Assembly (NCBI GenBank): GCA_900604495.1
Contig: UWOR01000004.1
Span: 124,001 to 188,000 of the forward strand
Origin: Desulfovibrio sp. Marseille-P6017
GTDB lineage: Bacteria; Bacillota_A; Clostridia; Peptostreptococcales; Peptostreptococcaceae
Direction of reading: 5' to 3'
DNA length: 64,000 nucleotides
The translations under genes were made by a program, and so were the position numbers. Of this stretch, positions 257 through 57,569 are shown piece after piece. Position 1 is the first letter of the stretch; the number at the start of each line of letters is the position of its first letter. The notes beneath the pieces are model-generated. The model was not told where the DNA came from. It was given only the letters and a program-made list of their open reading frames with translations, and did not search any database.

Positions 257-1024
257 TTAACTAATATAAGATTTTAATTTCGACAGTACTTTTTTCTCTA
301 TTCTAGAAACTTGAACTTGAGATATATTTAATATATCTCCTATTTCACTTTGTGTTTTATCTTCAAAATATCTAAGAACAATAATTTGTCTCTCTCTTTT
401 TTCTAGCTTATTAAGAACTTGCTTAAGAAGTAAATTATCAATTAACTTCTCTTCTTCATTCTCACCCTTTAAGCTTATTTTATCAATTAAACATATTGGA
501 GATCCTTCTTCTTCATGAATTACTCCATGTAAATATTCAACTGAAAAGTTTGCTTCCATAGCCATTACTAAATCTTCTTTTTCAACATCTAGTTCCTTAG
601 CTATTTCATCTACAGTAGGCTCTCTTCCTAATTTTTTAGTTAAAATTTCTTTTTGTGATTTTGCTTTTATAGCTGTTTGCTTTAATGATCTAGAAACTTT
701 AACCATCCCGTCATCTCTTAGATATCTTTTTATCTCTCCTAATATCATTGGAACAGCATATGTAGAAAATTTCACATTAAATTTAGGATCAAATTTATAT
801 ATAGATTTAATAAGGCCTATTGAGCCTAATTGGAATAAATCATCTCTATCATATCCTATATTAGAAAACTTAGATATTACACTTCTAACTAATCCTAAAT
901 TATTTTTTATTAAAATTTCTTTGGCTTCTTCATCATTTTCATTTTGAACCTTTTTTATTAAATCTAACGTCTCTTCATGGCTGAGTAATTTCTTTTTTTC
1001 TTCTTTATTTGCAGTTATCCCCAT
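257..1024 (-). CDS. sigF: RNA polymerase sporulation sigma factor F
   Basis: A 255-residue sigma-70 family protein, the usual SigF length. Region 2 (about residues 58-105) contains the core-binding stretch DDLFQLGSIGLIKSI and the -10-recognising part FSTYAVPMILGEIKRYLRDD. Region 4 (about 212-250) is the helix-turn-helix that reads -35 elements. SigF is the first forespore-specific sigma factor and is held inactive by SpoIIAB until SpoIIAA frees it. It is the last gene of the spoIIAA-spoIIAB-sigF operon, 26 bp after spoIIAB. ATG start with GAGG eight bases upstream. Operon position separates it from the similar SigG. Confidence 0.95.
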   Translation of the reverse strand: MGITANKEEKKKLLSHEETLDLIKKVQNENDEEAKEILIKNNLGLVRSVISKFSNIGYDRDDLFQLGSIGLIKSIYKFDPKFNVKFSTYAVPMILGEIKRYLRDDGMVKVSRSLKQTAIKAKSQKEILTKKLGREPTVDEIAKELDVEKEDLVMAMEANFSVEYLHGVIHEEEGSPICLIDKISLKGENEEEKLIDNLLLKQVLNKLEKRERQIIVLRYFEDKTQSEIGDILNISQVQVSRIEKKVLSKLKSYIS

Positions 1025-1050
1025 AATAAAACCTCTATTCTTTTTGGATT

Positions 1051-1479
1051 TTATTTAGGTAAGTTTATATTTTTTAGCATAATAACTTTTGTACCTTCAT
1101 TTTTTATAGAACTTACCTTTACATCATCCATAAAGCTTTCCATAACAGAAAATCCCATTCCTGATCTCTCAAGCTCTGGCTTTGACGTATATAACGGTTG
1201 CATAGCCAAATCTACATCTTCTATTCCATTCCCTTTATCTTCAACTATAATCTCTATCTTATTGCCTTCTAATTTACATTTTAAATATACAAACTTGGAC
1301 TCATCTTCATCATAACCATGTATGATAGCATTTGTTACAGCTTCTGATACAGCTGTCTTTATGTCCGCTATTTCGTCTAAAGTAGGATCTAACTTTGCTG
1401 CAAAAGATGCTGCTATAACTCTAGCTAAACTTTCATTTTCAGATTTAGCAGAAAACTTAACTTCCATAATATTACTCAT
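1051..1479 (-). CDS. spoIIAB: Anti-sigma F factor, serine kinase
   Basis: A GHKL/HATPase-fold kinase of about 142 residues. It shows the N box (EAVTNAIIHGYD), the G1 box (VEDKGNGI) and the G2 box (RSGMGFSVM). SpoIIAB binds SigF and holds it inactive with ATP, and phosphorylates SpoIIAA. An ATG at 1485 is only two bases from the AAGGGGG ribosome site, so the second ATG at 1479 (MSNIMEV) has better spacing and is chosen. It is the middle gene of the operon, 13 bp after spoIIAA. Confidence 0.95.
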   Translation of the reverse strand: MSNIMEVKFSAKSENESLARVIAASFAAKLDPTLDEIADIKTAVSEAVTNAIIHGYDEDESKFVYLKCKLEGNKIEIIVEDKGNGIEDVDLAMQPLYTSKPELERSGMGFSVMESFMDDVKVSSIKNEGTKVIMLKNINLPK

Positions 1480-1492
1480 AAACATTTCCCCC

Positions 1493-1828
1493 TTACAAAG
1501 AACTTAATGCTTCTTCATATGTACTGCAAACTTTTATAATTTTGTTCATTCCTGATAAATCAAAAACCTTTTTTACTCTAGGACTTATGTTTATAACTGA
1601 TACAGTACCTTTTTCACTTGATATTTTTTTATATCTACCTATTATCACACCTATTCCTGAAGAATCCATGAAGTTAATATTTTCAAAATCAAAAACTATA
1701 TTTTTAACTGATCTTGTCATTAAAATATCATCAATTTCTTCTCTTATAGCACCTGCTATATGATGATCTAATTCTGTCATCTCAAATTTAACTAGCAAGT
1801 TTTTATTATTCAAAGAATATTTTACCAT
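1493..1828 (-). CDS. spoIIAA: Anti-anti-sigma F factor (STAS domain)
   Basis: A 111-residue single STAS domain. The signature INFMDSSGIGVIIGRYK carries the serines (56/57) at the site SpoIIAB phosphorylates. Unphosphorylated SpoIIAA binds SpoIIAB and releases SigF in the forespore. First gene of the operon, with a very strong GGGGGG ribosome site and a sigma-H-type promoter about 60 bp upstream. Confidence 0.95.
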   Translation of the reverse strand: MVKYSLNNKNLLVKFEMTELDHHIAGAIREEIDDILMTRSVKNIVFDFENINFMDSSGIGVIIGRYKKISSEKGTVSVINISPRVKKVFDLSGMNKIIKVCSTYEEALSSL

Positions 1829-12667: not shown

Positions 12668-13819
12668 TTATCGTCTTCTTATAATCATTCTTAAATCACT
12701 TACCGATTCTTTTAATATATTTACAACTTCTAATATTTCATCTTTTGTATTTAAGTCTGATAAACTAAATCTTATTGCACCTTCTATTTCATTTGCAGTA
12801 AGTCCTATTGCATTTAATACATGACTTCCTTTTTTCTTAGATGAACATGCTGAACCTGTTGATACATAAACACCTTTTTGCTCTAAATAATGAAGTAAAA
12901 CTTCTCCTCTTACATCTTTAAAGGATATATTTAATATATGACAAACTCCATCTTCAGGAGAGTTTACTTTTATGTCATCTATATTTTTTATAATTTCTTC
13001 TTTTAATAAATTTTTAAGTTCTTTAATTTTATCTATTGTTTGATTTAGGTCCTTATTTAAAATTCTTACAGCTTCACCTATTCCATATATACCAGGAACA
13101 TTCTCTGTACCTGATCTTATTCCTATTTCTTGTCCTCCACCTGTAAGTATTGGTTTTAGTCTATTACTTTCTTTAATATACATAAATCCTATTCCTTTAG
13201 GACCATGTAATTTATGACCGCTAACGCTCATAAAATCTATATTATATCTAGATGGCTTAAAGTTTATCTTAGAATAAGATTGAACTGCATCAACATGTAA
13301 ATAAATTTTATCACTTAATGATTTTAAGTACTTCCCTATAGCTTCTATTGGCTGTATACTTCCTATTTCATTATTTACATGCATTATAGTTATTAATATT
13401 GTACTTGACTTTATAGCATTTTTTAAATCATCTATATTTATTTTTCCTTCTTTATCAACCTTTAAATATGTAACTTCAAACCCATCTTCTTCTAAATCTT
13501 TTAAAGTATTTAAAACAGATGGATGTTCAATTTCTGTTGATATTATATGGTTCTTTCTCTTTTTATATAAATTAGCAACTCCTCTTATTATAGCGTTATT
13601 AGATTCTGTACCACCTGATGTAAAGTATATTTCCTTATCCTTTGCACCTATAGTTCTAGCGATACCTTGTCTTATTGCTTTTATATTTTTCTCTACTTCT
13701 ATACCTTTTCTATGTAATGAAGACGGATTTGCATAATCAGTAGTAAGGGCATAAACCATTTTATCTACAACTTCTTTATATGGTTTAGTTGTAGCACTGT
13801 TATCTAAATATATTTCCAT
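12668..13819 (-). CDS. Cysteine desulfurase (NifS/IscS-like), partner of ThiI
   Basis: A 383-residue PLP-dependent enzyme converting cysteine to alanine and a protein-bound persulfide. The PLP lysine is Lys203 (SVSGHKLHG) and the persulfide cysteine is Cys325 in STGSACSSKKKG. A GTG at 13831 precedes it in frame, but GGTG eight bases upstream fits the ATG at 13819 (MEIYLDNSATT). It lies 80 bp upstream of thiI on the same strand, which suggests it is dedicated to tRNA thiolation rather than being the general iron-sulfur cluster desulfurase. Confidence 0.9.
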   Translation of the reverse strand: MEIYLDNSATTKPYKEVVDKMVYALTTDYANPSSLHRKGIEVEKNIKAIRQGIARTIGAKDKEIYFTSGGTESNNAIIRGVANLYKKRKNHIISTEIEHPSVLNTLKDLEEDGFEVTYLKVDKEGKINIDDLKNAIKSSTILITIMHVNNEIGSIQPIEAIGKYLKSLSDKIYLHVDAVQSYSKINFKPSRYNIDFMSVSGHKLHGPKGIGFMYIKESNRLKPILTGGGQEIGIRSGTENVPGIYGIGEAVRILNKDLNQTIDKIKELKNLLKEEIIKNIDDIKVNSPEDGVCHILNISFKDVRGEVLLHYLEQKGVYVSTGSACSSKKKGSHVLNAIGLTANEIEGAIRFSLSDLNTKDEILEVVNILKESVSDLRMIIRRR

Positions 13820-14030: not shown

Positions 14031-14040
14031 TTTGTCGAAA
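14031..14040 (+). promoter_or_regulatory. Spo0A-box-like sequence upstream of the tandem small RNAs
   Basis: TTTGTCGAAA matches the Spo0A box consensus TTTGTCRAA exactly over nine bases. It lies about 35 bp before the -35 of the first small-RNA candidate. Two weaker copies occur inside the two promoters (14076-14084 and 14318-14326). Confidence 0.5.
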
Positions 14041-14067
14041 AGTTTTTAAAGTTTTTTTGTAAAACTA

Positions 14068-14096
14068 TTGATTTTATTGTCGAAGATTGTTATTAT
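14068..14096 (+). promoter_or_regulatory. Promoter of small-RNA candidate 1
   Basis: TTGATT (14068-14073), a 17-base spacer and TATTAT (14091-14096) form a housekeeping-type promoter. The spacer contains ATTGTCGAA, a Spo0A-box-like element. The whole region is repeated at 14310-14338. Confidence 0.6.
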
Positions 14097-14101
14097 TAAT
14101 A

Positions 14102-14220
14102 CATGGTTATCCCCCTGATAACCTTAGTAAAATCTCTATTCCCAATACCCCTTTTAAATGAATACTTTTATATTCATTTGACACCTACTTCAGATCGGAA
14201 AAGAAGTAGGTTATTTTTTT
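14102..14220 (+). ncRNA. Candidate small RNA 1 with CCCCCU hairpin loop
   Basis: No protein gene lies in this region. The inferred transcript starts near 14102 with the hairpin GGTTATC-CCCCT-GATAACC (14105-14123). An unpaired C-rich stretch (TTCCCAATACCCCTTTT), a second hairpin (TGAATA/TATTCA, 14159-14176) and a terminator hairpin (ACCTACTTC/GAAGTAGGT, 14183-14211) with a long T run follow. The loop is complementary to the AGGGGG ribosome sites common in this window. About 120 bp including promoter are nearly identical to the next element. No known RNA family is recognised. Confidence 0.6.
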
Positions 14221-14309
14221 ATATTTTTTTAATAAATATAAGCTTACTTTGATTTTTTCAAATTTAACATAGATTTAACATATTTATGACAATTTTTTTG
14301 TAAAAACTA

Positions 14310-14338
14310 TTGATTTTCTTGTCGAATATTGTTATTAT
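14310..14338 (+). promoter_or_regulatory. Promoter of small-RNA candidate 2
   Basis: TTGATT (14310-14315), 17 bases, then TATTAT (14333-14338), with CTTGTCGAA (14318-14326) in the spacer. It has the same layout as the promoter of candidate 1. Confidence 0.6.
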
Positions 14339-14342
14339 TAAT

Positions 14343-14488
14343 ACATGGTTATCCCCCTGATAACCTTAATTAAAATCTCTATTCCCAATACCCCTTTTGA
14401 ACGGATATACTTTATATCCATTAGTTTAAGATGATAACGGAAATCATCTTAAACAAAAAAGAAGAGCTTCCCCAGCTCTTTTTTTTTG
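14343..14488 (+). ncRNA. Candidate small RNA 2 with several C-rich loops
   Basis: Paralogue of candidate 1. The 5' hairpin GGTTATC-CCCCT-GATAACC (14347-14365) and the following C-rich stretch are conserved. The 3' half differs: hairpins GGATATA/TATATCC (14403-14419) and GTTTAAGATGAT/ATCATCTTAAAC (14424-14454), then a terminator AAGAGCT-TCCCC-AGCTCTT (14462-14480) with eight Ts. The terminator loop is also C-rich. It ends about 115 bp before the asparaginase gene, which has its own upstream sequence, so it is read as a separate RNA rather than a leader. Confidence 0.62.
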
Positions 14489-14604: not shown

Positions 14605-15600
14605 ATGACTAATAAGAAGAAAGTAGCTATAGTCTTCACTGGAGGTACTATATCTATGACAGTTGACGAAAAAGTCGGTGCAGCAATACCTACTTTATCT
14701 GGTGAACAAATAATGTCTATGGTAACAAATATTGATAAAGTTGCTAATGTTGAAGTTTTAAATTTTGATGAAATACCAGGACCTCATATGACACCAGAAA
14801 GAATGATGGAATTAAAACACTACGTAAATAATCTTTTAGAAAGAGAAGATATTTGTGGTGTAGTAATAACTCATGGTACTGATAGTTTAGAAGAAACTGC
14901 TTATTTCTTAGATTTAACTATAGATAATGAAAAGCCTGTAATAGTTACAGGGGCTATGAGAAGTAGCTCTGAACTTGGATATGATGGTCCAAGTAACTTA
15001 TCTGGTGCAGTTTGTACTGCTATATCAGATAGTGCCCGTAAAAAAGGAGTTCTTATTGTTTTAAACAATGAGGTTATAGCTGCTTCTGAAGCTACTAAGA
15101 CTGATACTCTAGCTTTAAATACCTTCCAATCAGTAACTGGCGGACCACTAGGAGTTATAGACTGTAATGAATTTCTTTTATATAAGAAAATAACAAATAG
15201 AACTATAATTGACACTGATAAGGTAGAAAATAAAGTTGCTTTATTCAAGTCTGCAGTTGGAATGGATGAAACATTTTTAAAATTAGCTGTAGATAATGGA
15301 TATAAAGGTATAGTCATCGAAGCTATGGGTAGAGGAAACATACCTCCAAAAATGTATGAGGGTGTCAAATATGCTAGAGAAAACAATATTCCAGTTGTTA
15401 TAGTGTCAAGATGTAATTCTGGTAGAGTATTTGATAGTTACGGATACCTTGGTTCAGGTAGAGACTTAAGAAACCTAGGTTGTATATTTGGTGGTGATTT
15501 ACCAGGTCACAAAGCAAGACTAAAATTAATTTTAGCTTTAGGAAAAACAAATAATTTAGAAGAAATAAAAGATTACTTTGAAAAAGGTATATACTATTAA
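14605..15600 (+). CDS. L-asparaginase
   Basis: A 331-residue asparaginase hydrolysing L-asparagine to aspartate and ammonia. The first catalytic motif is FTGGTISM (Thr15), the second ITHGTDSLEET (Thr92, Asp93), and Lys165 lies in EATKTDTLAL. There is no signal peptide, so it is cytoplasmic. Length and single-domain plan fit the bacterial enzyme family. Start ATG with GAGGTGGG upstream. Monocistronic, downstream of the two small-RNA candidates and convergent with the lipoprotein gene. Confidence 0.92.
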   Translation: MTNKKKVAIVFTGGTISMTVDEKVGAAIPTLSGEQIMSMVTNIDKVANVEVLNFDEIPGPHMTPERMMELKHYVNNLLEREDICGVVITHGTDSLEETAYFLDLTIDNEKPVIVTGAMRSSSELGYDGPSNLSGAVCTAISDSARKKGVLIVLNNEVIAASEATKTDTLALNTFQSVTGGPLGVIDCNEFLLYKKITNRTIIDTDKVENKVALFKSAVGMDETFLKLAVDNGYKGIVIEAMGRGNIPPKMYEGVKYARENNIPVVIVSRCNSGRVFDSYGYLGSGRDLRNLGCIFGGDLPGHKARLKLILALGKTNNLEEIKDYFEKGIYY

Positions 15601-24026: not shown

Positions 24027-24701
24027 CTATGCATTAGCTTTAGCTAGCTTTTTCTCAAATTTACCTACTAACTTAGATAATGTAAACGTTAATATAAAGT
24101 ATATAATAGCTGCTACTATAAGTGGCTCTAATGGTTTATATGTGGCATTCTTAACTATTGATGAAGTAAACATTATCTCACGTACACCTATAACTGATAT
24201 TATTGCAGACTCTTTCACTAGAGTTATAAATTCATTAGCTAAAGATGGTAATATATTTTTTATAGCTTGTGGTACTATTACATATCTCATTGTTGCTGCA
24301 TAGCCTAACCCCAAAGATCTACTTGCTTCCATTTGACCTTTTTCAACTGATTGTATTCCTGATCTTAATATTTCAGCCACATAGGCTCCTGAGTTTATTG
24401 ATAAAGCAAATGCACCTGCTATAAAATCACTAGATATCCCTAATATACTTGGAAAATCTATTCCAACCTGTGGTAACCCAAAGTAAATTATATATATTTG
24501 AACAAATAGAGGTGTTCCTCTTAAAATTTCTATATATGTTATTGCTACAGCTTTTAATACCTTAAATGTAGATAATTTCATTAAACAAATTAACATACCT
24601 ATAATACACCCAAATAATAATGCCACTAGTGAAATTATTACTGTTACAGATGTTCCTTCTAAAAATAAGCTTCCATATTTACTTAAAAAACTAAAATCCA
24701 T
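24027..24701 (-). CDS. Amino-acid ABC transporter permease
   Basis: A 224-residue inner-membrane permease of the HisMQ type with about five transmembrane helices. The family N-terminus (LFLEGTSVTVIISLVALLFG) and the EAA-like coupling loop (EASRSLGLGYAATMRYVIVP) are present. A single permease gene implies a homodimer. Very good ribosome site AGGAGGTGGG. It lies 26 bp after the first binding-protein gene. Confidence 0.92.
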   Translation of the reverse strand: MDFSFLSKYGSLFLEGTSVTVIISLVALLFGCIIGMLICLMKLSTFKVLKAVAITYIEILRGTPLFVQIYIIYFGLPQVGIDFPSILGISSDFIAGAFALSINSGAYVAEILRSGIQSVEKGQMEASRSLGLGYAATMRYVIVPQAIKNILPSLANEFITLVKESAIISVIGVREIMFTSSIVKNATYKPLEPLIVAAIIYFILTFTLSKLVGKFEKKLAKANA

Positions 24702-25604: not shown

Positions 25605-25925
25605 AAAGCCCCTTAGCTATAATAGCTAAGAGACGAATTATATCCGCGTTACCACTCTTTTTGATAAATCATTCATATCAAAATAATGTTTACAAATAAA
25701 AAAGCCTCTTAGTCATAATGACTAAGAGACGAATTATATCCGCGTTACCACTCTTTTTGATAAGTTTAACTTATCCTCTCAAACCCTTAAGGCGGGCTAT
25801 CCAATTATCATACTATTAATTTCTGATAATCTCCTCCAAAGCTCTTTTCACTCTAAACTTCAATACTAGGCTCACACCAATTCCTAGCTCGCTGAAAATC
25901 CACTTAGGTTACTTTCTTTTTCTTA
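25605..25925 (-). promoter_or_regulatory. T-box riboswitch with duplicated antiterminator/terminator
   Basis: On the minus strand a Stem I with the AGCGAG and GGUGUGAG conserved stretches is followed by a T-box sequence GAGTGGTAACGCGG at 25740-25753 and a terminator at about 25704-25730. An identical GAGTGGTAACGCGG at 25644-25657 with a second terminator at about 25608-25634 follows. There is only one Stem I. The specifier region reads TGAAAAGAGCTTTGG; by spacing the codon could be AGA (Arg, 25843-25845), with GCT (Ala) as the alternative. T-boxes sense the charging state of a cognate tRNA. Confidence 0.9.
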
Positions 25926-25953
25926 GGATTTCTTATTTGAAATTGTTAATACA

Positions 25954-26053: not shown

Positions 26054-28093
26054 TTAAATATGTATAACATTATTTAATACACATACTCTATAATTTAAAA
26101 TTCTTGTTCCATCAGAAAACTTAACTCTAATAGAATCTCCATCTTTAGATACTATAGTTCCCTCTTTGAATTTCTTATGGTATATTGTGTCACCTATATT
26201 TATATTATCCATTTCTTCTTTAGTAGGAGCTTTAATATCATCTATAAAAGTTGATACAGATACTTTTTTTCCATACTTATTTTGTGGTGAGCTTATACAT
26301 AAATTTTCTTCAGCTCTGGTAATAGCAACATACATAAGTCTTCTTTCTTCTTCAATTTGGTTATCTTTTTTATCGTCATCATCTAAATCATATGATTTTT
26401 CATGAGGTATAGTTCCCTCATTTACTCCTATAATATATACGTTCTTAAATTCTAATCCTTTGGCACTATGCATTGTTGTAAATATTACACCATCGCTTTG
26501 ATCTTTGTGTTTATTATCTGCAACTTCTGATTTCACTCTATCTATATGATCTAAATAATCTTTTATCGTTTTAAAATTACTTGCAGAACTTTCTAATTCG
26601 TTTAAAATCTCAATTAATCCATTTGTTTTAATCTTTCTATTTGAACAATAATCTAAGATATATATATCATATTCTAAACTTGTCCTAATGTAAGAAATTG
26701 CATTTTGAGGACTTAATGTTTTTAAGTAACTTAAATCAATATCTAAGTCATTTATAGTTTTTACTTGTTTTGGATGAAGGTTGCACTTAGTTATTAAAGC
26801 ATTTATAAAGTCTTTCTCATCTTTTATACTATTTATACTATCTCTAGATATATATCTAAATGGCTTATTTATAATCCTAACCCAATCTTTAGTTGAACTA
26901 GGATCAAGCCCTAATCTTAAATATGCAAGTATATCCTGAGATGCCCAATGGTCATATATAGTAACTATAGAATCTTTAACTACAAAAGGTATCCTCATAT
27001 CCATAAATACATCCACTAAAGCTCTCGATTGTATATTAGTTCTATATATAACAGCAAAATCACTGTACTCTACAAAGTCTTTTTTTACCTCATCTAATAT
27101 TTCTTTTCCAATAATAACAGCTTCTTCTTCTGAGTCTTTTGGAGCTATATAATTTATATTTCCTCCATTTCCTTGACTACATTTTATTACTTTTTCATAT
27201 CTATTTGAGTTTTTTTCTATTAATCTATTTGCAATATCTATAATTTCACCTTTAGATCTATAATTTATATCTAATAGAATCTTTTTAGTTCCTTCAAAGT
27301 ATTCTTCAAATTCTAATAAAAAATCTGGTCTTGCCCCTCTGAATCCATATATACTTTGATCTTCATCTCCAACAACAAATATATTATTTAAAGGATTAGC
27401 TATTAACTTTAATACCTCAAATTGAACTTTATTTATATCTTGAAATTCGTCTACTAAAATATATCTATATGCATTTCTTACTGTTTCTAAAGCTTTCATA
27501 TTATTTTTAAGCAAAAAATAAGTTCTAAGTAGCATATCATCAAAATCTATTTTTTTCACTTGATGCTTATGCTCCTCATATAAATTATAGGCTTTAATAA
27601 ACTCATCTTTACTCATAACTTCTGAATTAAAATCAACTTTATCCATTAATTCGTTTTTGACAAAGGAAATTTCATTTATAAATTGCCCAATTACTTCATC
27701 ATCTTCTCCATTTTCAATATTTAAGCTTTTTAAAATTCCCTTTATTGCTAGTCTTTTAGACTTCTCGTCTAATATACTATCTAAGCTATATTTTTCAAAA
27801 TGTCTTAATATCCTAAAAAATACTGAGTGGAATGTTCCATATGTAACTTTGTTCATTTTTAAATCTTTACTTAAAGCCATAGATCTATTTTTCATTTCTA
27901 TAGAAGATGCTTTTGTAAAGCTTATAGCAAGTATGCTCGTTGGTTTTATATTGTTATTTACAACCATATTTGCAATCCTATGAGTAATAACTCTTGTCTT
28001 TCCTGAACCAGGACCTGCAAGAACCATACAAGGGCCATCTAAGTGACATACTGCCTGCCTTTGATTTTCATTTAATGTATCTATATTTATCAT
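26054..28093 (-). CDS. UvrD/PcrA-like DNA helicase (superfamily 1)
   Basis: About 679 residues. Motif I is AGPGSGKTRVITHR, motif II DEFQDINKVQ, then GDEDQSIYGFRGA, DINYRSKG, TMHSAKGLEFKNV and VAITRAEENL. The C-terminal 60 residues form a Tudor-like fold (GDTIYHKKFKEGTIV). It unwinds DNA 3'-5' in repair and replication restart. It is somewhat shorter than Bacillus PcrA, and may be a second UvrD-family paralogue. The GTG at 28102 is part of the AAGGTGG ribosome site, so the start is the ATG at 28093. Confidence 0.9.
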   Translation of the reverse strand: MINIDTLNENQRQAVCHLDGPCMVLAGPGSGKTRVITHRIANMVVNNNIKPTSILAISFTKASSIEMKNRSMALSKDLKMNKVTYGTFHSVFFRILRHFEKYSLDSILDEKSKRLAIKGILKSLNIENGEDDEVIGQFINEISFVKNELMDKVDFNSEVMSKDEFIKAYNLYEEHKHQVKKIDFDDMLLRTYFLLKNNMKALETVRNAYRYILVDEFQDINKVQFEVLKLIANPLNNIFVVGDEDQSIYGFRGARPDFLLEFEEYFEGTKKILLDINYRSKGEIIDIANRLIEKNSNRYEKVIKCSQGNGGNINYIAPKDSEEEAVIIGKEILDEVKKDFVEYSDFAVIYRTNIQSRALVDVFMDMRIPFVVKDSIVTIYDHWASQDILAYLRLGLDPSSTKDWVRIINKPFRYISRDSINSIKDEKDFINALITKCNLHPKQVKTINDLDIDLSYLKTLSPQNAISYIRTSLEYDIYILDYCSNRKIKTNGLIEILNELESSASNFKTIKDYLDHIDRVKSEVADNKHKDQSDGVIFTTMHSAKGLEFKNVYIIGVNEGTIPHEKSYDLDDDDKKDNQIEEERRLMYVAITRAEENLCISSPQNKYGKKVSVSTFIDDIKAPTKEEMDNINIGDTIYHKKFKEGTIVSKDGDSIRVKFSDGTRILNYRVCVLNNVIHI

Positions 28094-47603: not shown

Positions 47604-49532
47604 CTATATCTTTAAAAGTTCTTTTACTGATGGAAATTCCTCTATATTTGTATGAGGTAAGAAGCATGCAGATACAAATTCATCCATATACCCAGGATAA
47701 ACACTAAGTTCAACATAAGTCATCTGGCTCGCAATTTCCTCTAACTTATTTTTAGCATCTCTGCTTATTAACGCTAAGTAAGATCCTACTAATGAACTAT
47801 TTCCAATATACTTAAACTTATCTCTAGATACATCTGGAAGCAATCCTATAGTTATTGCATTTTCTATATTTAAGCTATTTCCTATACCTCCGGCAATATA
47901 AACTCTATCTAATACACTAAAGTCCATTCCTAAACTATCTAAAAGTACGGATGCACCTGAGTATATAGCCCCTTTAGCTCTTATAAAATTATCAATATCT
48001 ACTTCATTTACAATTATGTCATTTTCTAAATTGTATTCTTCTTTAAATGCTAATACATATTCCCCTATTTCATTTTCATCAAATCTAATTCTTGGATTAT
48101 CTATATCTTTTTGTATCTTTCCTCTTCTATCTATAATTCCATTTATAATCATCTGACATATCAAGTCAATTATTCCTGATCCACATATACCAATAGGTTC
48201 ACAATCACCTATAATTTTTAAAGTTGGTTCTAATGTATCTGAATTAATTTTAATCCCTTCTATAGCTCCACAAGATGACCTCATTCCACACCTAATACCT
48301 CCACCTTCAAAGGCAGGGCCTGCAGAACAAGCACAACTCATCATAAAGTCTTTATTTCCAAATACAATCTCTCCATTTGTACCTAAATCTATAAATAATA
48401 CATTTTCTTCATTAGCCCATATCCCTGCTGATAATACACCTGCAGTTATATCTCCACCTACATAACTAGATACATTCGGTGCTAGGTAAACATATGCACT
48501 ATCATTAACTTCTAGTTCTACATTTTCTCCCATTAGTTTAGGTGATCTTAAAAAAGGTGGTATATAAGGTTCTCTTCTTAAGAAATCTGGATAAACTCCT
48601 AAAAGCAAACTAGACATTGTCGTATTACCAGATGCTACAACACTTATAACATCATCTTTATTTATATTATTTTTTTCATATATAGATCTAAGTAATGGGT
48701 TTATGGTTTCATGTATAATTGCTTTATATAAAATATCAAGACCATCCTTCTTTGTTGCAAATACTATTCTATTAATCACGTCTGCTCCGTATTTTATTTG
48801 AGCATTACCTGATGATGCTTTATCTATAAGTACTTGATTCTCTAATTCTACTAAACAAACTACAACTGATGTTGTCCCTATGTCTATTGCTACTCCGTAT
48901 AAAGACTCTCCTGTATCACCTGAATCTATATTTATTATTGTTAGCTTATTCTTTTTTTGTACGTATGTTAATGTTACTTTGAAATCATTTTCTCTAAGTA
49001 CCTTAGGTATTTTTCTTAATATATCTAATCTAAAATCAATTTCATTATAGCCCAAATTATTTCTAATATATCTTTGTAATCTATCAACGTCACTTATATT
49101 ATCATCTAATGTAGGCTCATCTAATTCAATATATTTTTTCTTAATATTTGTACGAAATTCTAAGTTATGATTTGAAGCAATATCTTTAGCTCTATTAAAA
49201 ATAGCCTCGTCCTTTTCTTTCCCCCCACCTTCAATTTTCATACCATACATAGATGAAGACAACTTAGATGGTACTTCTACCTCAATATCTGAAACTACCC
49301 TAGAGTTACATGCTAATACATAACCTTGCTTAACTTCATCGTCAGTTATATGCCTTGTTTTCTCTGTATCTACATTTCCATTTAAAACCTTAACCTTACA
49401 TTTCCCACATGACACATTACCATTACATGGTGCATCTATAAATATATCTGCAGCCCTTGCTACATCAAGTAATAAATCCCCTTCTTTGCAATAAGTCTCT
49501 TTATTATGAGACTTAAAAAGTACCTTTATCAT
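47604..49532 (-). CDS. Corrinoid protein reductive activator, RACo-like (ASKHA ATPase)
   Basis: A 642-residue protein. The N-terminal ferredoxin domain binds a [2Fe-2S] cluster with Cys36, Cys42, Cys45 and Cys75. A linker follows, then an ASKHA ATPase domain (about 215-642; VAIDIGTTSVVVCLVE, FIDLGTNGEIVFG and YIAGGIGNSLNIE). This is the RACo layout: ATP-driven reduction of Co(II) to Co(I) in the corrinoid iron-sulfur protein AcsCD, as in Carboxydothermus. AcsCD is encoded 5 kb away. It could instead serve another corrinoid methyltransferase, since RamA-type activators are related. Monocistronic. Confidence 0.85.
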   Translation of the reverse strand: MIKVLFKSHNKETYCKEGDLLLDVARAADIFIDAPCNGNVSCGKCKVKVLNGNVDTEKTRHITDDEVKQGYVLACNSRVVSDIEVEVPSKLSSSMYGMKIEGGGKEKDEAIFNRAKDIASNHNLEFRTNIKKKYIELDEPTLDDNISDVDRLQRYIRNNLGYNEIDFRLDILRKIPKVLRENDFKVTLTYVQKKNKLTIINIDSGDTGESLYGVAIDIGTTSVVVCLVELENQVLIDKASSGNAQIKYGADVINRIVFATKKDGLDILYKAIIHETINPLLRSIYEKNNINKDDVISVVASGNTTMSSLLLGVYPDFLRREPYIPPFLRSPKLMGENVELEVNDSAYVYLAPNVSSYVGGDITAGVLSAGIWANEENVLFIDLGTNGEIVFGNKDFMMSCACSAGPAFEGGGIRCGMRSSCGAIEGIKINSDTLEPTLKIIGDCEPIGICGSGIIDLICQMIINGIIDRRGKIQKDIDNPRIRFDENEIGEYVLAFKEEYNLENDIIVNEVDIDNFIRAKGAIYSGASVLLDSLGMDFSVLDRVYIAGGIGNSLNIENAITIGLLPDVSRDKFKYIGNSSLVGSYLALISRDAKNKLEEIASQMTYVELSVYPGYMDEFVSACFLPHTNIEEFPSVKELLKI

Positions 49533-49692
49533 ACTCTATTCCCCCTATTATAGTCTCTATTATAATTTTAGCATAAATTTCCACAATATATATATTAAAT
49601 AAGAAACTAATCTATACCTTTTCAAGAATATTTAAATTCAATTTTATTAAAACTAAATATAAATTAATTTTACTATACAGGAGGACAATTTT

Positions 49693-50823
49693 TTGAAAGC
49701 TATTGTATATGAAGGAATAAAAAAGGTAAATGTACGTGATGTAGAAGATCCAAAAATAGAAAAAAATGATGATATTATTGTTAAAGTAACATCTACCGCT
49801 ATATGTGGTTCAGATCTTCATTTAATTCATGGCATGATTCCTAATCTAAAAAAGAATTCAATTTTAGGTCACGAAACAATGGGAATAGTTGAGGAAGTGG
49901 GAAAAGATGTTAATAAAGTAAAAAAAGGTGACAGAGTTATAGTTCCATTTCCTGTAGCATGTGGACATTGCTTTTATTGTGAACACAAGTTATATAGCCA
50001 ATGTGATAACTCAAATGAATATGGTGAATGTGGTGGAATATTTGGATATAGCGATACATTTGGTGGGTATGATGGTGGACAAGCAGAGTATTTAAGAGTA
50101 CCTTATGCTAATGTTGGTCCTATAATAATTCCCGAAGAATTATCTGATGATCAGGCACTTTTCCTTACTGATGTTTTACCAACATCTTATTGGGGAGTAG
50201 ATAACGCAGATGTAAAAAAGGGGGATACTGTAGTTGTTCTTGGTTGTGGACCTATAGGTCTTTCTGCTATAAAGTGGCTTATGCTAAAAAATGTAAAAAG
50301 AATTATTGCCGTAGATAGAGTTTCATATAGACTAAACCATGCATCTTCATATAAAGGCGTTGAAGTAATTAATTTTGAAGATCATGATGATACTGGTGAG
50401 TATATAAAAGAAATTACTCAAGGAGGTGCTGATGTAGTCTTAGATTGTGTTGGTATGGATGGTGTAATGTCAAATTTTGAAAAAGTAGAAACTTTATTAA
50501 AATTACAAGGTGGCTCAAAATCAGCAATTGAAATATCTTCTCGTTGTATTAGAAAAGGTGGAACAGTCATGATGGTTGGAGTCTATGGTGCAAGATATAA
50601 TTTATTCCCGCTAGGTGACTTCTTTTCTAGAAATATAACTATAAAAATGGGACAATGTCCTGCACAAGCTTATATTCCTAAGATTTTAGACATAATAAAA
50701 AAAGGTGAATATGATCCTACTGACATAATTACTCATAAACTATCTTTATCTGAGGGTAAATATGCCTATGATATATTTGATAGTAAGCTAGATAATTGTA
50801 TAAAAGTAGTTTTAAAGCCATAA
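49693..50823 (+). CDS. Zinc-dependent alcohol dehydrogenase (formaldehyde dehydrogenase-like)
   Basis: A 376-residue medium-chain dehydrogenase. Catalytic zinc ligands are Cys38 (AICGSDLH) and His60-Glu61 (LGHETMG). The structural zinc cysteines are 90, 93, 96 and 104. The NAD(P) motif is VVVLGCGPIGLSA. It resembles glutathione-independent formaldehyde dehydrogenases by the insertion after the zinc loop. Substrate unproven. The start is TTG at 49693 behind AGGAGG. It is the only plus-strand gene between two minus-strand pathway blocks and is convergent with gcvH. Confidence 0.85.
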   Translation: MKAIVYEGIKKVNVRDVEDPKIEKNDDIIVKVTSTAICGSDLHLIHGMIPNLKKNSILGHETMGIVEEVGKDVNKVKKGDRVIVPFPVACGHCFYCEHKLYSQCDNSNEYGECGGIFGYSDTFGGYDGGQAEYLRVPYANVGPIIIPEELSDDQALFLTDVLPTSYWGVDNADVKKGDTVVVLGCGPIGLSAIKWLMLKNVKRIIAVDRVSYRLNHASSYKGVEVINFEDHDDTGEYIKEITQGGADVVLDCVGMDGVMSNFEKVETLLKLQGGSKSAIEISSRCIRKGGTVMMVGVYGARYNLFPLGDFFSRNITIKMGQCPAQAYIPKILDIIKKGEYDPTDIITHKLSLSEGKYAYDIFDSKLDNCIKVVLKP

Positions 50824-50852
50824 ATATTTCACCTTATAATATATATAACTAT

Positions 50853-50896
50853 ATTAAAGATAGAAATTCGCTGCAGTCGAATTCCTATCTTTAATT
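50853..50896. terminator. Bidirectional terminator between alcohol dehydrogenase and gcvH
   Basis: ATTAAAGATAG and CTATCTTTAAT pair with a GAATT inner stem (50853-50895), with T-rich flanks both sides, between convergent genes. Confidence 0.7.
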
Positions 50897-50903
50897 AATA
50901 AAA

Positions 50904-51278
50904 TTACTCTAATGTGCTTTCATATAAATCTGAATTTAATAAACTTTCTAATTCATCAGCATCAGAAAATTTAACTTTAACTATCCATGCATCATATGGA
51001 TCTTCATTTATATATTCAGGTTCATCTTCTAATTTTTCATTTATTTCTACTACTTCACCTGATACTGGAGCAATTAAATCAGATGCTACCTTAGAAGATT
51101 CTACTACACCAAAGTCGTCCCCTTGAGTTAGTGTATCTTCAACTTCAGGCATTTCTACAAATAGAACTTCTCCTAATTGTTCTTGAGCAAAATCAGTTAT
51201 TCCTATATAACCATATTCTCCTTCAACTCTTACCCAAGTATGCTTATCACTATATCTTAATTCTGGTATAACCTTCAT
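50904..51278 (-). CDS. gcvH: Glycine cleavage H-like lipoyl protein
   Basis: A 124-residue H-protein. The lipoylated lysine is in VVESSKVASDLIAPVSG. It carries the methylamine intermediate in glycine cleavage or synthesis. No gcvT or gcvP lies nearby, but the H-protein and the dihydrolipoyl dehydrogenase in this cluster are typical of the C. difficile Wood-Ljungdahl gene order, where they may link to glycine. Last gene of the operon, 20 bp after acsB. Confidence 0.92.
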   Translation of the reverse strand: MKVIPELRYSDKHTWVRVEGEYGYIGITDFAQEQLGEVLFVEMPEVEDTLTQGDDFGVVESSKVASDLIAPVSGEVVEINEKLEDEPEYINEDPYDAWIVKVKFSDADELESLLNSDLYESTLE

Positions 51279-51298
51279 ATTATTCCTCCTAAGTAATA

Positions 51299-53428
51299 TT
51301 ACATTACAGCTTCCATTGCTAATGCTGGATGGCCTTTTTCTTCTAAGAATGCAAGTACACCTTCAGAATCATTAGCTATTGTTTCATCACAAATCATATC
51401 TGTGAAGTTTTCTATTCCTGTCATTTCCTTGACAGTAGCATTTAATTTATCAGCTACATAATCTTTTAATTCTTTTGGCATCCAAACTATTCTTTCTGGT
51501 CCACCTTCTGCATACGCGAATTTTTTAGAAGATATAAAGTGTCTTCCATGTCCCATAAATCCTGGAGTTTGAACTCCTCCACCTGTCATAGATGCTAGTT
51601 CTCCAAATGTCATACCTACTGGAGTTATTCCAGGGAATTCTCTATTTACTATAACAAATCCATTAGCTTCAGGCATTATACCGCATATACACTCGAAACA
51701 TCCACAAGAAGTCATTGGGTCTTCAAGTATAGAGTACAATGTAACACTTTCAACTGCACCTTGAGATATTTGGTTAACTGTTTCATTTACAGAATTCCAT
51801 CTACCTAATCTATCATCTAAGCAATCTCCTTTTACAACTGGTTGACATGGACCTGTTGGATCTAATTCTTTAGTTGCTTTAGCATCTAACCAACTAACAG
51901 CTCCACAAAGACCAAGTCTCTCAGGAGTTACTATACAAACGTGAGCTGGTGCAAATGATTGACATAAGTTACAAGAATAGAATGTATCAACACTCTCATC
52001 AACTAATGATGCTAATCTTTCATCTCTAGCATCATATCTAGCTACAGCTTCAGATTTTCTAGCAGAAACTTGTTCTGGATCAGTTATTATAACTATTTCA
52101 CATTTATCAACAACTGTATCAAATTCATCTTTCATTTTAGCATATAGAACTTCACCTATATGTTGTAATCTAAATCCTTTTTCATAAGCATCTTTAGATA
52201 TTCTTACCCAAGACATATCTCTTTGACCAACATGCATTACACCTTCTATATAGTTTAAGAAGTAATGGAAACGTCTTTCAAGAACTGGTTCAAAGTCATC
52301 TTGCATTGCTTTACCAGCTATTTTAACTATTACAGCAAGTGGTAATCTTATTAATCCATTTACTGGTTCTACTTCATCTATATTTGGTCCTATTATTTCT
52401 ATTTTATGATCTTCAACTTCAGAAGCTTCTTTATGTACAACAAGCTCCCAAGCTTCAGTTTTATTTCCACCAAATTCAGCTATCATATCACCTTTTCTTA
52501 TTCTTTCACCTTCGAAAGCTGCAGCAAATGATACTGGTATAGGTATTTCAGTTATTTTTATTTTTATATTTCTAGCTTCTAAAGAAGTAGCTACAAATTT
52601 ATCATAATCTTTTTGAGTTAATAAGTTCATTGGAACTTCAAGAACAGTTTGATCAGTTATAACTGGGAATCCTAAAGCTATTGCTCCAGCTCCAGCAGAA
52701 ACAACTAACTCACTAAGTGGTCCAAATGCATTAACAAATGCTGGAACCCTCTTAGAAGTATATTCTAATAATCCTGAAAGATCTCCTGGAGTTAATGCTC
52801 CGAATATTAATGCTGCTCTTATAGCAACTGATACAACATGTATAACAGAAGTTACATCATATCCTAAAGGTATAACCCTTAAGTCAACTCCCATTTTTAC
52901 TCCTGCTTCTATAACTTGATCTATAACTTTACCAACTAAGAAAGTTAATAAACCTTTAGATTGATAATCCTTAACTATTTTAGCTGCAGTTTCAGAGTCT
53001 GGGCATTCACCAAGTACAACTGCAACCCCGGGTATATCTCCTGTAACTAAAGGTACACCTAAAGATCTTATTATTGGGTCACCTACATGACCTGCACATG
53101 GAGCTTGGTATGGTTCTTCCATAGTTGCATACTTTATAGCTTCTATAACTTCTGCAGCTAAAGCTGTAGCTAAACCAGAATTTAAAGCATGCTCTAATAA
53201 ATGAGTTCTATTTATTAGAGATTCAACTACTGTTAAAGCACCTTCTAAGTCTCCAAGAGTACTCATTTTTTGCCCTGTTGCTGCATATATGCAAGGTAAT
53301 GAGTATGCAGTATCAGGGAATGATACTGGATGTTCCTTCCCATGTTGAGCTATAGCATCAGCAAGCATTCCTTTAGCAGCATCTAACGCTTGTTCTGAAC
53401 CTGTAAAAATTATATTATATAAATTCAC
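51299..53428 (-). CDS. acsB: Acetyl-CoA synthase catalytic subunit
   Basis: A 709-residue enzyme that assembles acetyl-CoA from CO, a methyl group from the corrinoid protein and CoA at a Ni-Ni-[4Fe-4S] A cluster. The cluster cysteines appear in SCNLCQSFAPAHVC, then LGLCGAVSW, and the Cys-Gly/Phe-Cys nickel site as SCGCFECICG. Length is normal. The start is GTG (AAGGGGG-AAGTAGA-GTG). The operon position, after acsE with a hairpin between, is standard. Its nickel probably comes through the nik and CooT functions of this window. Confidence 0.96.
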   Translation of the reverse strand: MNLYNIIFTGSEQALDAAKGMLADAIAQHGKEHPVSFPDTAYSLPCIYAATGQKMSTLGDLEGALTVVESLINRTHLLEHALNSGLATALAAEVIEAIKYATMEEPYQAPCAGHVGDPIIRSLGVPLVTGDIPGVAVVLGECPDSETAAKIVKDYQSKGLLTFLVGKVIDQVIEAGVKMGVDLRVIPLGYDVTSVIHVVSVAIRAALIFGALTPGDLSGLLEYTSKRVPAFVNAFGPLSELVVSAGAGAIALGFPVITDQTVLEVPMNLLTQKDYDKFVATSLEARNIKIKITEIPIPVSFAAAFEGERIRKGDMIAEFGGNKTEAWELVVHKEASEVEDHKIEIIGPNIDEVEPVNGLIRLPLAVIVKIAGKAMQDDFEPVLERRFHYFLNYIEGVMHVGQRDMSWVRISKDAYEKGFRLQHIGEVLYAKMKDEFDTVVDKCEIVIITDPEQVSARKSEAVARYDARDERLASLVDESVDTFYSCNLCQSFAPAHVCIVTPERLGLCGAVSWLDAKATKELDPTGPCQPVVKGDCLDDRLGRWNSVNETVNQISQGAVESVTLYSILEDPMTSCGCFECICGIMPEANGFVIVNREFPGITPVGMTFGELASMTGGGVQTPGFMGHGRHFISSKKFAYAEGGPERIVWMPKELKDYVADKLNATVKEMTGIENFTDMICDETIANDSEGVLAFLEEKGHPALAMEAVM

Positions 53429-53445
53429 TCTACTTCCCCCTTTTT

Positions 53446-53471
53446 AGCCCCAGCTTTATAGCTGAGGCTTA
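53446..53471 (-). other. Intercistronic hairpin between acsE and acsB
   Basis: AGCCTCAGC and GCTGGGGCT pair on the minus strand just before the acsB ribosome site, and are not followed by Ts. Likely mRNA processing, stability or translational tuning, not termination. Confidence 0.5.
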
Positions 53472-53493
53472 ATAATTTAAACTAGTTTATATC

Positions 53494-54306
53494 TTATACG
53501 TTATATTCAAATGCACCTTCGTTTATTTCTAAGAATGAATCTGCATATAAAGATGCTCCATTTATTATGTCGCAAGATTTTATAGTTTGCATTAATAACT
53601 CATCACATGGGTTTACTATTGCAGAACTAAATCCGTTAGCCATTGCCATAGCTAAGAAGTTACTATCTAATATAGGTCTTATATGTTTTGGACAACCATT
53701 AGATACATTTGATAATCCGCCTGTAGTTGGAAGTCCCATCTCTGTCATCATTCTTATTGCTTCTAATACTTCTACTTGCTTATCTTGCATACCTTTTATA
53801 ACTAAGCATAATGGGTCAAATAACATGTCAGATGGATCTAATCCTAGCATTAAACCTTTTTCTAACATTTCTTGACAGTATGCCATACGTTCATCGTTAT
53901 CTTTAGGTATACCATCTTTAGCACATAAAGCTATAACTTTAGCTTCATATTCAGCAGCTAAATCTATCATGTCTAATCTTCCTCCTGCATCTGCAGAGTT
54001 TACAATTGGTTTAGCATGCTCTCTATTGTAAACTTTAAGACCTGCCTCTATAGCTTTTCTATTTGCAGTATCTAATGCTAGTGGAACATTATTAAGTTCA
54101 GATTGAAGCATTTGAACTCCCCAAGTCATTATTTCTTCTCCATCCCTTTCAGCTGGGCCTATATTAAAATCTATATAATGAGCACCGGCATCTAATTGAG
54201 CTTTAGCTCTTCTTAATATTGGCTCAGGATCTCTTTCTGCTAGTGCTTTTCTTATTTCTGGCGATATACAGTGTATTCTTTCACCTATAATCATAAATTT
54301 TTCCAT
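53494..54306 (-). CDS. acsE: Methyltetrahydrofolate:corrinoid iron-sulfur protein methyltransferase
   Basis: A 270-residue TIM-barrel (pterin-binding) enzyme that moves the methyl group from methyl-THF to Co(I) of AcsCD. Motifs include IIGERIHCISPEIRKAL, YIDFNIGPA, VNSADAGG, and GLSNVSNGCPKHIRP. Length matches AcsE (about 262). ATG after AAGGGGGG. The gene lies between acsC and acsB as in C. difficile. Confidence 0.95.
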   Translation of the reverse strand: MEKFMIIGERIHCISPEIRKALAERDPEPILRRAKAQLDAGAHYIDFNIGPAERDGEEIMTWGVQMLQSELNNVPLALDTANRKAIEAGLKVYNREHAKPIVNSADAGGRLDMIDLAAEYEAKVIALCAKDGIPKDNDERMAYCQEMLEKGLMLGLDPSDMLFDPLCLVIKGMQDKQVEVLEAIRMMTEMGLPTTGGLSNVSNGCPKHIRPILDSNFLAMAMANGFSSAIVNPCDELLMQTIKSCDIINGASLYADSFLEINEGAFEYNV

Positions 54307-54361
54307 TATCTATTTCCCCCTTATGGACTAATAATTAATTTATTTTAAATAATTATTTATA

Positions 54362-55738
54362 CTAAGCGTTAGCTAATTCTTGAGCTTTCTTAGCTTGATA
54401 ATCTTTTAAGAACTTAGGTATTTCCATAGACTCTTCTGTACCTATTATTATATTCCAATCTGGTAGATTCTCTTCTAAGTCTCCTTTTATAACAGCAACT
54501 TTACCTGGTATTATTAAATCTCTGTTATTAGTCTTTTCTGCTATACCACATTCTTTAACGAATGCTGCTATAGAGTTTCCACCAAACTTACCAGCAGCCC
54601 ATGAAGTAAGAACTGAGTATCCACCTGCATCTGGTATTACTAACCAACATGGTACTTTAGATCTTTCTATATCTCCTGATACTATAAAGTAAGTTAATGC
54701 AAAGTCAACAGTGACTAATACTGGAGAATTTTCATCTGGGTTATTTATTGGGTATATCTTAGGCTCAACTCTCATTGGTCTTTGTGGGTCAGTGTAGATA
54801 TTTTGTCTTAATGCAAATAAAGGTAATGCTTTTGAATAATCTATATCATCTAATACTATTATTGATCCGTATTTTATTGTAAATACAGAAGATAAAGCAA
54901 CTTCCATCATTGGATTGTTATTAGATAATTTATTTGCAAATATTATTGATGGGTATCCGAATGTTCTGTCTTGTTCCTTTAATGCAATTCTTCTAACTTG
55001 AACTGCATTAGTATAAGTATCTTTTATATTTTCTCCAGTTACATCTAAAACTAATTCTTTATAACCAGCACTTTGTATAGCTTCTACTGTAGAGTATAAT
55101 TCTTCTAAACTAGATGCTTTAACACCTAATGCTAAATTTGCAGCTTTAACTACATCTATCATAGCTTTATAGTTATCTTTATTAGCTCCATATACTATTG
55201 GATTAGTACCTTCTAATAAAGCTACAGCTTCTTTAGCAACATCAGCATCTTCACAATCTACTATGTATGCTATTTTTAATTCACTATCTTTTAATTTATT
55301 TATTAATGACACGTAAGCATCTTTGTTTCCATTATATTTTAATAATGCAAACTCAACTTTCATTTCTTCACCTATTCTTACGTAGTCAACTAACTTCATG
55401 TTTGCTATCTTATCATTTACTGCTTCTTCACTCATTCCATCACAGAATTGAACAGCAAATCTATTTCTACTTACTAAAGTTTTTTCATGTCTAAATAATA
55501 CAGTTTCTCCACCTAAAGTATATTCAGATTCTCCTGTACCTACTTTTAATGCTTTCATTAAAGGTGCAGTAGCTTCTGATAATTTAGCTATTGCATCATC
55601 TGACATATGTGGACATTTACCTACTTCTACTGCTCCTGAAGCAACCTTCATAGAGAATGCCATACAAGTTGGAAAACTACAATCTTTACAGTTTTTCTTT
55701 GGTGTTAATTTAAATATATCTAAAGCTTTTAATGCCAT
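54362..55738 (-). CDS. acsC: Corrinoid iron-sulfur protein large subunit
   Basis: A 458-residue subunit. The N-terminal [4Fe-4S] domain has Cys17, Cys20, Cys25 and Cys42 (CKDCSFPTCMAF; KCPHM). The central TIM barrel and the C-terminal corrinoid-binding part (about 320-440) follow. With AcsD it carries the methyl group to acetyl-CoA synthase. It needs RACo for reactivation. The ribosome site AGGGGGATA is a nine-base match to the complement of the small-RNA loop at 14105-14123. Confidence 0.95.
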   Translation of the reverse strand: MALKALDIFKLTPKKNCKDCSFPTCMAFSMKVASGAVEVGKCPHMSDDAIAKLSEATAPLMKALKVGTGESEYTLGGETVLFRHEKTLVSRNRFAVQFCDGMSEEAVNDKIANMKLVDYVRIGEEMKVEFALLKYNGNKDAYVSLINKLKDSELKIAYIVDCEDADVAKEAVALLEGTNPIVYGANKDNYKAMIDVVKAANLALGVKASSLEELYSTVEAIQSAGYKELVLDVTGENIKDTYTNAVQVRRIALKEQDRTFGYPSIIFANKLSNNNPMMEVALSSVFTIKYGSIIVLDDIDYSKALPLFALRQNIYTDPQRPMRVEPKIYPINNPDENSPVLVTVDFALTYFIVSGDIERSKVPCWLVIPDAGGYSVLTSWAAGKFGGNSIAAFVKECGIAEKTNNRDLIIPGKVAVIKGDLEENLPDWNIIIGTEESMEIPKFLKDYQAKKAQELANA

Positions 55739-55767
55739 TTTTATATCCCCCTAACCTTACAAATAAA

Positions 55768-56712: not shown

Positions 56713-56731
56713 AATTATTTCCCCCTTAAGC

Positions 56732-57502: not shown

Positions 57503-57527
57503 ATTAAGACTTCCCCCTTGTCATTGT

Positions 57528-57569
57528 CAAAACAGAGCTTAAAGTTAAATTATTTATTTTACTCTGTTT
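57528..57569 (-). other. Intercistronic hairpin between lpdA and cooC
   Basis: CAAAACAGAG and CTCTGTTTTG pair on the minus strand. No strong T run follows (GACAATGACAAGGGGG), so it probably does not terminate fully. It may divide transcript levels inside the operon. Confidence 0.5.

Follow-up and report, generated by a model that had tools for sequence, protein, structure and literature searches.

The window, the 64,000-nucleotide stretch of DNA analyzed here, contains two tandem small RNA (sRNA) genes, each with its own promoter and terminator, and we regard this observation as confirmed. Judged by covariance-model matches, the genes belong to a family that is widespread in two clostridial orders and rare outside them. 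We favor, with moderate confidence, the reading that they are tandem paralogues within an ancient clostridial family of trans-acting, anti-Shine-Dalgarno sRNAs, which would work in an RsaE-like mode under the regulation of Spo0A and would have likely targets in sporulation and metabolism. The initial annotation had read the loci as paralogous sRNAs in tandem, with C-rich loops complementary to Shine-Dalgarno sequences, an interpretation that our analysis partly supported: conservation, predicted structure, and the retention of C-runs speak for it, but predicted pairing energies barely exceed those of a reversed-sRNA control.

Two tandem sRNA genes with their own promoters and terminators

Repeat, promoter, and fold analyses all recovered the two tandem repeats, with a promoter, a hairpin, and a terminator in each, that had originally been described (Table 1). 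The repeat search returned two direct repeat pairs, one of 84 nt with 90% identity at 14049/14291 and one of 37 nt with 92% identity at 14128/14371. In a promoter scan that found 11 promoter-like sites in the region, compared to 5.0 in shuffled sequences, a TG preceded the -10 box of both promoters. Behind the promoter of each copy, the predicted folds show a 5' hairpin, an unpaired UCCC/ACCCC linker, a further hairpin, and a terminator. The fold of sRNA1 had a z-score of -4.2, with none of 200 shuffles as good; that of sRNA2 had a z-score of -8.6 with the last terminator included (0 of 200 shuffles as good) and of -3.0 when the sequence was cut before it (1 of 200). Because its 11-nt loop lies outside the range that the scan allows, the sRNA1 terminator was missed by the terminator scan and was seen in the fold. 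By DNA identity, the nearest locus is L149 (genome G068), followed by Romboutsia loci, which places the window in Romboutsia or near it.

Table 1. Features of the sRNA loci, their neighbors, and the candidate sigF target, in window coordinates
Feature	Position	Strand	Basis or remark
sRNA1 gene	about 14102..14221	+	Start inferred from -10 box, end from U tract
Promoter 1, TTGATT-N17-TATTAT, extended -10	14068..14096	+	Promoter scan
TGTCGAA (Spo0A-box-like) in promoter 1 spacer	14078..14084	+	Read in sequence; position class from relatives
Additional TGTCGAA farther upstream, in the gap that separates promoter 1 from the divergent cysteine desulfurase; could act for either one	14033..14039	+	Sequence
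sRNA1 5' hairpin, GGTTATC-CCCCT-GATAACC	14105..14123	+	Fold
sRNA1 conserved single-stranded linker with UCCC and ACCCC	14124..14155	+	Fold, model alignment
sRNA1 terminator hairpin, then U tract	14183..14211	+	Fold
sRNA2 gene	about 14343..14487	+	Fold, scan; ends inferred
Promoter 2, TTGATT-N17-TATTAT, extended -10	14310..14338	+	Promoter scan
TGTCGAA in promoter 2 spacer	14320..14326	+	Read in sequence; position class from relatives
sRNA2 5' hairpin	14347..14365	+	Fold
sRNA2 conserved linker	14366..14398	+	Fold, model alignment
sRNA2 U-tailed terminator, loop UUCCCC (third C-rich loop)	about 14454..14488	+	Fold, terminator scan
Divergent neighbor, cysteine desulfurase (NifS/IscS-like)	12668..13819	-	Like gene beside many relatives' loci
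Asparaginase-like gene on far side of loci	14605..15600	+	Named by eye
Candidate target, sigF (spoIIAC) ribosome site and start, GAATAGAGGTTTTATTATGGGGATAAC	1014..1040	-	Predicted pairing

Distribution of the family

An exact 19-mer, in which the outermost pair could also be A-U, occurred in at least 118 stretches of a one-genome-per-species collection. The collected loci together with the window held 126 such matches, 119 with the linker motifs and seven without, and three of these seven sit close to contig ends. One of the 119 linker-bearing matches (L104) looked like a chance occurrence on inspection.

A covariance model of 57 positions, made from 26 sequences, found the sRNA in 61 of the 71 genomes searched from the family of Romboutsia lituseburensis (E ≤ 0.01), in 205 of 297 genomes from the order of Anaerovorax odorimutans, and in 100 of 199 from the order of a Tissierellia bin (both at E ≤ 0.001); these counts include the centre genome each time, and the two orders may overlap. 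At the same cutoff of 0.001, and again with the centre genome counted, the class-wide search yielded 16 of 391 genomes and the phylum-wide search three of 398, the three including the centre genome and a match with an E value of 9e-4; the large genome searches used stricter filters, with which weak members can be missed. The Peptostreptococcaceae, the scope given in the initial annotation, thus proved too narrow for a family that the covariance model finds in two clostridial orders. Several Romboutsia and Paraclostridium genomes carry at least two tandem copies, with up to five matches in one genome, and one genome related to the window (G032) has Spo0A and gave no sRNA match with the covariance model. 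Four matches lay in viral contigs.

The genes beside the sRNA vary by lineage, as seen across 196 loci, some of them duplicated, with gene names assigned by eye. At these loci, a cysteine desulfurase-like upstream divergent neighbor forms one set, of 83 flanking proteins, and a SpoVS-like divergent neighbor occurs at 28 loci of the Anaerovoracaceae type; the downstream genes differ between lineages. Since the neighbors change while the sRNA gene is kept, the RNA should act in trans.

A nearly invariant hairpin and linker

Across relatives, hardly any variation was seen in the hairpin GGUUAUC-CCCCU-GAUAACC and the linker AUCUCUA(U/A)UCCCAAUACCCCUUUU; among the 26 model sequences the linker AUCUCUAUUCCCAAUACCCCUUUU hardly varies, and in the Anaerovorax group UCUAAUCCC replaces UCUAUUCCC. 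Nor does the loop vary freely: at least CCC is retained in 63 of 64 hairpins, in rows retrieved with a model that was itself made from C-loop members. The terminal hairpin carries a CCCC run in 70 of 145 genes.

Covariation in the stem around an invariant CCCCC loop, as originally envisaged, was borne out only as far as the loop, which keeps its CCC; the stem is near-invariant and has few compensatory changes. In 15 hairpin rows chosen for variety, 95.1% of stem cells were paired, two-sided changes affected three of the seven stem pairs (25 of 500 shuffles were as good), and the covariation score was reached by 4 of 500 shuffles. Stem pairing dropped to 15-55% when the stem was slid by one to three columns. 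Pair counts were redone without gaps because the gapped alignment misplaces the seventh pair in rows with 4- or 6-nt loops; one of 65 rows was dropped, and in the remaining 64 hairpins, pairs 1, 2, 3, and 7 showed exchanges such as G-C to A-U and C-G to U-A. Most of these 64 rows do not differ at all: it is the sequence of the stem that is held, and a stem so nearly invariant is therefore no scaffold that covaries freely around the loop.

The member found in genome G018 retains the layout. We labelled this genome Clostridioides-like from its gene order and from the position of sigF at 944.9 kb; the start of spoIIAA in C. difficile strain 630 is tabulated nearby, at 942.5 kb, in PMC7438776. A remote paralogue group (L193, L194, L195, L201, L203, L207, and L208), hosted by Romboutsia- and Paraclostridium-type genomes, has a UCCCC loop and more C-rich runs, with the same promoter box as the main group; by eye, it adjoins a protein-kinase-like gene. 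Other details of single members were noted. In L173 (2259-2408, - strand) and in other Peptostreptococcaceae members, CGGA loops (AACGGAA) recur in the 3' hairpins and are a possible protein-binding motif. A weak match, at L196 and L197, has the stem TACTAT-ATAGTA with a CCCCCC loop and, by eye, lacks the usual promoter; it is perhaps part of a longer transcript.

A Spo0A-box-like motif in the sRNA promoters

The spacers of both window promoters contain TGTCGAA, a motif that the initial annotation overlooked and that points to Spo0A. We take the Spo0A box consensus to be TGNCGAA and read the window motif as such a box. On this presumed consensus, the box stands at the promoter in both window copies and in relatives. 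A box was present within 120 nt of the hairpin, on either strand, at 51 of 119 loci, compared to 2.7 in shuffled sequences and about 9 expected from whole-locus density, and the matches pile up at -27/-26 (26 matches) and -47 (10 matches) from the hairpin. Thirteen reverse-strand boxes (TTCGNCA) at -80 to -77 from the hairpin in the same 119 loci perhaps serve the divergent gene. Counted over 170 distinct promoters, TGTCG lay within the spacer in 77, at an identical position in 76 of these; it lay upstream of the spacer in 15, exactly 20 bp away in 11 of them, and 79 promoters had it in neither place. Because the spacer-box group had been selected for TGTCG, the 98% identity of those letters within it is circular and was discarded as a measure of conservation.

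If Spo0A reads the box, the box should vanish where Spo0A vanishes. In the first of two genome sets, a Spo0A_C domain search of 80 genomes, 70 of which bear the sRNA, counted proteins above 140 bits as full-length Spo0A: TGTCG was found within 60 nt in 33 of 51 genomes with full-length Spo0A vs. 2 of 19 without, and the strict TGNCGAA in 21 of 51 vs. 2 of 19 (p = 0.02). The second set comprised 56 genomes, with full-length Spo0A defined by an open frame of at least some 260 codons and a score above 120 bits, and gave TGTCG in 16 of 27 genomes with vs. 4 of 29 without. Pooled, and with one genome lacking both Spo0A and the box dropped, the counts were 49 of 78 vs. 6 of 47 (p = 3e-8 by a Fisher test that ignores shared descent). 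The background density of TGTCG in the same loci was 1.39 per kb without Spo0A vs. 0.91 per kb with it. Within the Romboutsia family, 24 of 25 genomes with Spo0A and one of three without had the box; outside the family, the corresponding counts were 25 of 53 and 5 of 44.

Five of the six box-bearing genomes without full Spo0A are a draft genome or metagenome bins and may lack spo0A through incompleteness; the sixth is G193. The box is absent from 29 of the 78 genomes with full Spo0A. Other genomes without full Spo0A have kept the sRNA and have no box, and since the sRNA persists where Spo0A has decayed or been lost, sporulation cannot be its only role. Spo0A was detected in 63 of 80 sRNA-less clostridia and therefore does not need the sRNA. 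Both Spo0A and the sRNA are missing from nine related genomes (G051-G059), perhaps Peptostreptococcus, which are 2.0-2.3 Mb in size.

Candidate targets

AGGGGG, which had been said to precede most genes in the window, was found at 18 of 54 gene starts, or a third; 11 of the 18 fall among the 13 genes of the Wood-Ljungdahl (acs) cluster at 47604-62157 (- strand), five of which were identified by name. The assignment of AGGGGGATA as the ribosome site of acsC (the acs gamma subunit) and of a PTS gene was correct, these being two of the 54 starts. When 0.8 Mb was read from each of two relatives, GGGGG sites stood ahead of 12% and 15% of the genes. Genome-wide counts of AGGGGG vs. AGGAGG over 76 genomes did not, by eye, cleanly separate those bearing the sRNA and lend no support.

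Mean predicted pairing energies in two relatives were -14.7 for the real vs. -14.3 for the reversed sRNA and -15.3 vs. -15.0, a comparison slightly biased toward the real sRNA, for which the better-pairing of two copies was taken, vs. a single copy for the control. Starts at or below -25 kcal/mol numbered 9 vs. 10 and 23 vs. 16 in the two relatives, real vs. reversed, and starts at or below -30 kcal/mol numbered 2 vs. 2 and 2 vs. 1. For the window, the mean was -16.6, compared to -14.5 (sd 1.1) for shuffled cores. As the real and reversed distributions are alike, only the outlier, sigF, is used as support.

The sigF start is the best-pairing of 55 window starts (-33.3 kcal/mol, the next being -24.6) and the best of 690 and of 682 starts in parts of two relatives (-34.1 and -30.9). 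It beats the respective reversed-control values of -26.6, -30.4, and -30.8, the last by only 0.1, and the three top-ranked sigF sites are homologous and hence are not independent trials. In the predicted pairing, the linker CUCUAUU lies over the ribosome site and the hairpin GUUAUCCCC over the start codon. A comparison of linker and sigF sought matching changes across lineages and found a sigF start in 18 of 28 loci. Pairing was predicted at -30.9 to -38.0 in eight of these 18, including Romboutsia, Paraclostridium, and Asaccharospora, and was weak in Clostridioides-like genomes (-14.9) and in several other relatives. In G016, G017, and G072, the sigF site (GATTAGAGG or GATTAGGGG) mismatches the genome's own sRNA linker, which speaks against a role for sigF in these genomes. 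In the window, sigF is the third gene of a spoIIA-type operon at 257-1828 (- strand), and the two small genes before it, spoIIAA- and spoIIAB-like by order, carry AGGGGGG and AAGGGGG ribosome sites.

Among sRNA-bearing genomes, the spo0A ribosome site could be read in 28 of the 30 best loci, from 60 matching genomes, and all 28 had five or more consecutive G; among sRNA-less clostridia, 27 of the 30 best loci, from 63 matching genomes, were readable, and 11 had such a run. This kept G-run fits spo0A as a putative sRNA target. Its pairing energy is ordinary: spo0A, which was expected to rank high, stood 113th of 690 and 55th of 682 starts in the two relatives.

Alternative explanations

The invariant hairpin might be mainly a protein-binding site, for Hfq, a cold-shock or KH protein, or a CsrA-like protein acting through the 3' CGGA loops, with a loop that does not pair. 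We consider this unlikely: although the stem varies hardly more than the loop in sequence, beyond the need of loop display, and the CGGA loops recur by eye in Peptostreptococcaceae members, the linker outside the hairpin is likewise conserved and C-rich, the C-runs in about half of the terminal hairpins are as expected of pairing seeds, and the remote paralogues keep C-runs in an otherwise different linker. A short peptide encoded at the loci would be hardly credible. Many copies have no start codon ahead of the hairpin, and where an ATG or GTG is present there, as in some copies, it is too near the promoter for a ribosome site. A 49-codon frame does span copy 1, but the distance from the hairpin to the end of the linker is 54, 55, 57, 58, 59, or 60 nt among relatives; these lengths differ by non-multiples of three, in agreement with the original view that neither locus is protein-coding.

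The reading of the promoter motif has its own competitor, in which TGTCGAA would serve another regulator or the divergent neighbor and be unrelated to Spo0A or the sRNA. The motif's identity as a Spo0A box does depend on a presumed consensus, and SpoVS-like genes, named by eye, are divergent neighbors at the Anaerovoracaceae-type loci. The nearly uniform place of the spacer box inside the sRNA promoter, its presence ahead of the remote paralogue group, and its rarity in two genome sets where Spo0A is missing all argue the other way, and we judge this explanation quite unlikely. It is more improbable still that the family member in C. difficile is the already characterized sRNA SpoY (nc020). 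According to PMC10267692, SpoY targets G-rich ribosome sites, as is proposed for the RNAs described here; of 28 target sequences, 24 contain the G-rich, RBS-like motif that it binds, and its repression of spo0A links it to sporulation. It appears to differ in genomic setting and in seed position: SpoY is 5'UTR-derived, its start is shared with the protein gene CDIF630_00827, and spo0A protects its nucleotides 30-41. The Clostridioides-like locus L173, in contrast, stands in a convergent gap with only a doubtful 85-codon GTG frame that starts inside the RNA, and the same nucleotides of the Clostridioides-like member, counted from a predicted start, are UA-rich.

Relation to known RNAs

At gathering scores, Rfam 15 gave three matches in the whole window, all outside the sRNA loci; the loci were therefore not assigned to any Rfam family with another role. 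One of the three is RF03531 (n00280, a C. difficile sRNA inside a helicase gene) at 26281-26380 (- strand), with 83.5 bits vs. 65.2 needed. A T-box leader (RF00230, 136.5 bits) at 25722-25933 (- strand) lies just ahead of a group of genes, one of them for an amino-acid ABC transporter permease (24027-24701). Over the sRNA loci, a search at E values up to 10 returned weak matches only, RsaE among them. The likeness to staphylococcal Rsa RNAs drawn in the initial annotation holds for the proposed mode and not for membership: the RsaE/RoxS model RF01820 scored 18.7 bits (E 1.5), vs. the 79 bits required. RsaE/RoxS shares a ACCCCUUU-type motif with the window sRNAs and is under ResD/Rex control; the window sRNAs carry a Spo0A-like box instead. 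FsrA of Bacillus subtilis and IsrR of Staphylococcus aureus, the latter also a C-rich sRNA, are under iron control, and we liken the window RNAs to them by C-rich motifs, with no kinship implied.

In RsaE/RoxS, several single-stranded C-rich regions regulate genes, some via Shine-Dalgarno pairing, and in FsrA, C-rich motifs bind G-rich Shine-Dalgarno sequences, as described in PMC10433868. Our predicted folds likewise have several single-stranded C-rich regions, but here the main C-run is in a sequence-constrained 5' hairpin, and the hosts are others. CsfG of endospore formers, a conserved, sporulation-specific sRNA according to a title in the references of PMC10267692, is comparable by that description only. 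The hairpin sequence strings did not occur in the papers listed by the literature search, and the matches there were to a shorter linker string, in papers unrelated by title. As far as Rfam and the literature searched go, the family is new; the C. difficile copy may well be listed, uncharacterized, among published sRNAs.

Proposed mechanism and implications

The most likely mode of action is anti-Shine-Dalgarno pairing under Spo0A control. The two loci, as tandem paralogues, would be transcribed by the housekeeping polymerase into trans-acting sRNAs of ~80-150 nt. The sequence-constrained 5' hairpin would display the CCCCC loop, with the unpaired UCCC/ACCCC linker next to it, and in about half of the relatives the CCCC-loop terminator may add another seed for G-rich ribosome sites. 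By base-pairing, they would block selected mRNAs at translation initiation, much as RsaE/RoxS does; likely targets include spo0A, sigF in the Romboutsia clade, and metabolic genes whose ribosome sites contain AGGGGG, for example those of the Wood-Ljungdahl cluster. In many sporulating lineages, Spo0A would govern the sRNA via TGTCGAA between the -35 and -10 boxes, or 20 bp upstream, and the placement of the box between the two promoter elements suggests that bound Spo0A~P would repress the sRNA promoter.

A further step, which we put forward tentatively and regard as doubtful, is a two-sided switch predating the split of the two orders, in which the sRNA would hold down translation of spo0A and sigF during growth and Spo0A~P would shut the sRNA promoters. 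Were this so, mutual repression would sharpen the sporulation decision and would supply part of the control needed by clostridia that lack a phosphorelay, such as C. difficile, in which to our knowledge no phosphorelay is apparent; Wood-Ljungdahl targets would explain why the sRNA outlives sporulation in genomes without Spo0A.

RsaE was described in a 2015 abstract (PMC4409812) as the only trans-acting sRNA besides 6S conserved from S. aureus to B. subtilis. Trans-acting sRNAs rarely survive over long distances, and here a near-fixed hairpin and linker extend across two orders, in an sRNA that is absent from Rfam and that at least half, and at most almost nine tenths, of the genomes in three searched groups contain. 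Through the apparent tie of its promoter to Spo0A, the family offers a defined element for studying the decision to sporulate in clostridia that have no phosphorelay.
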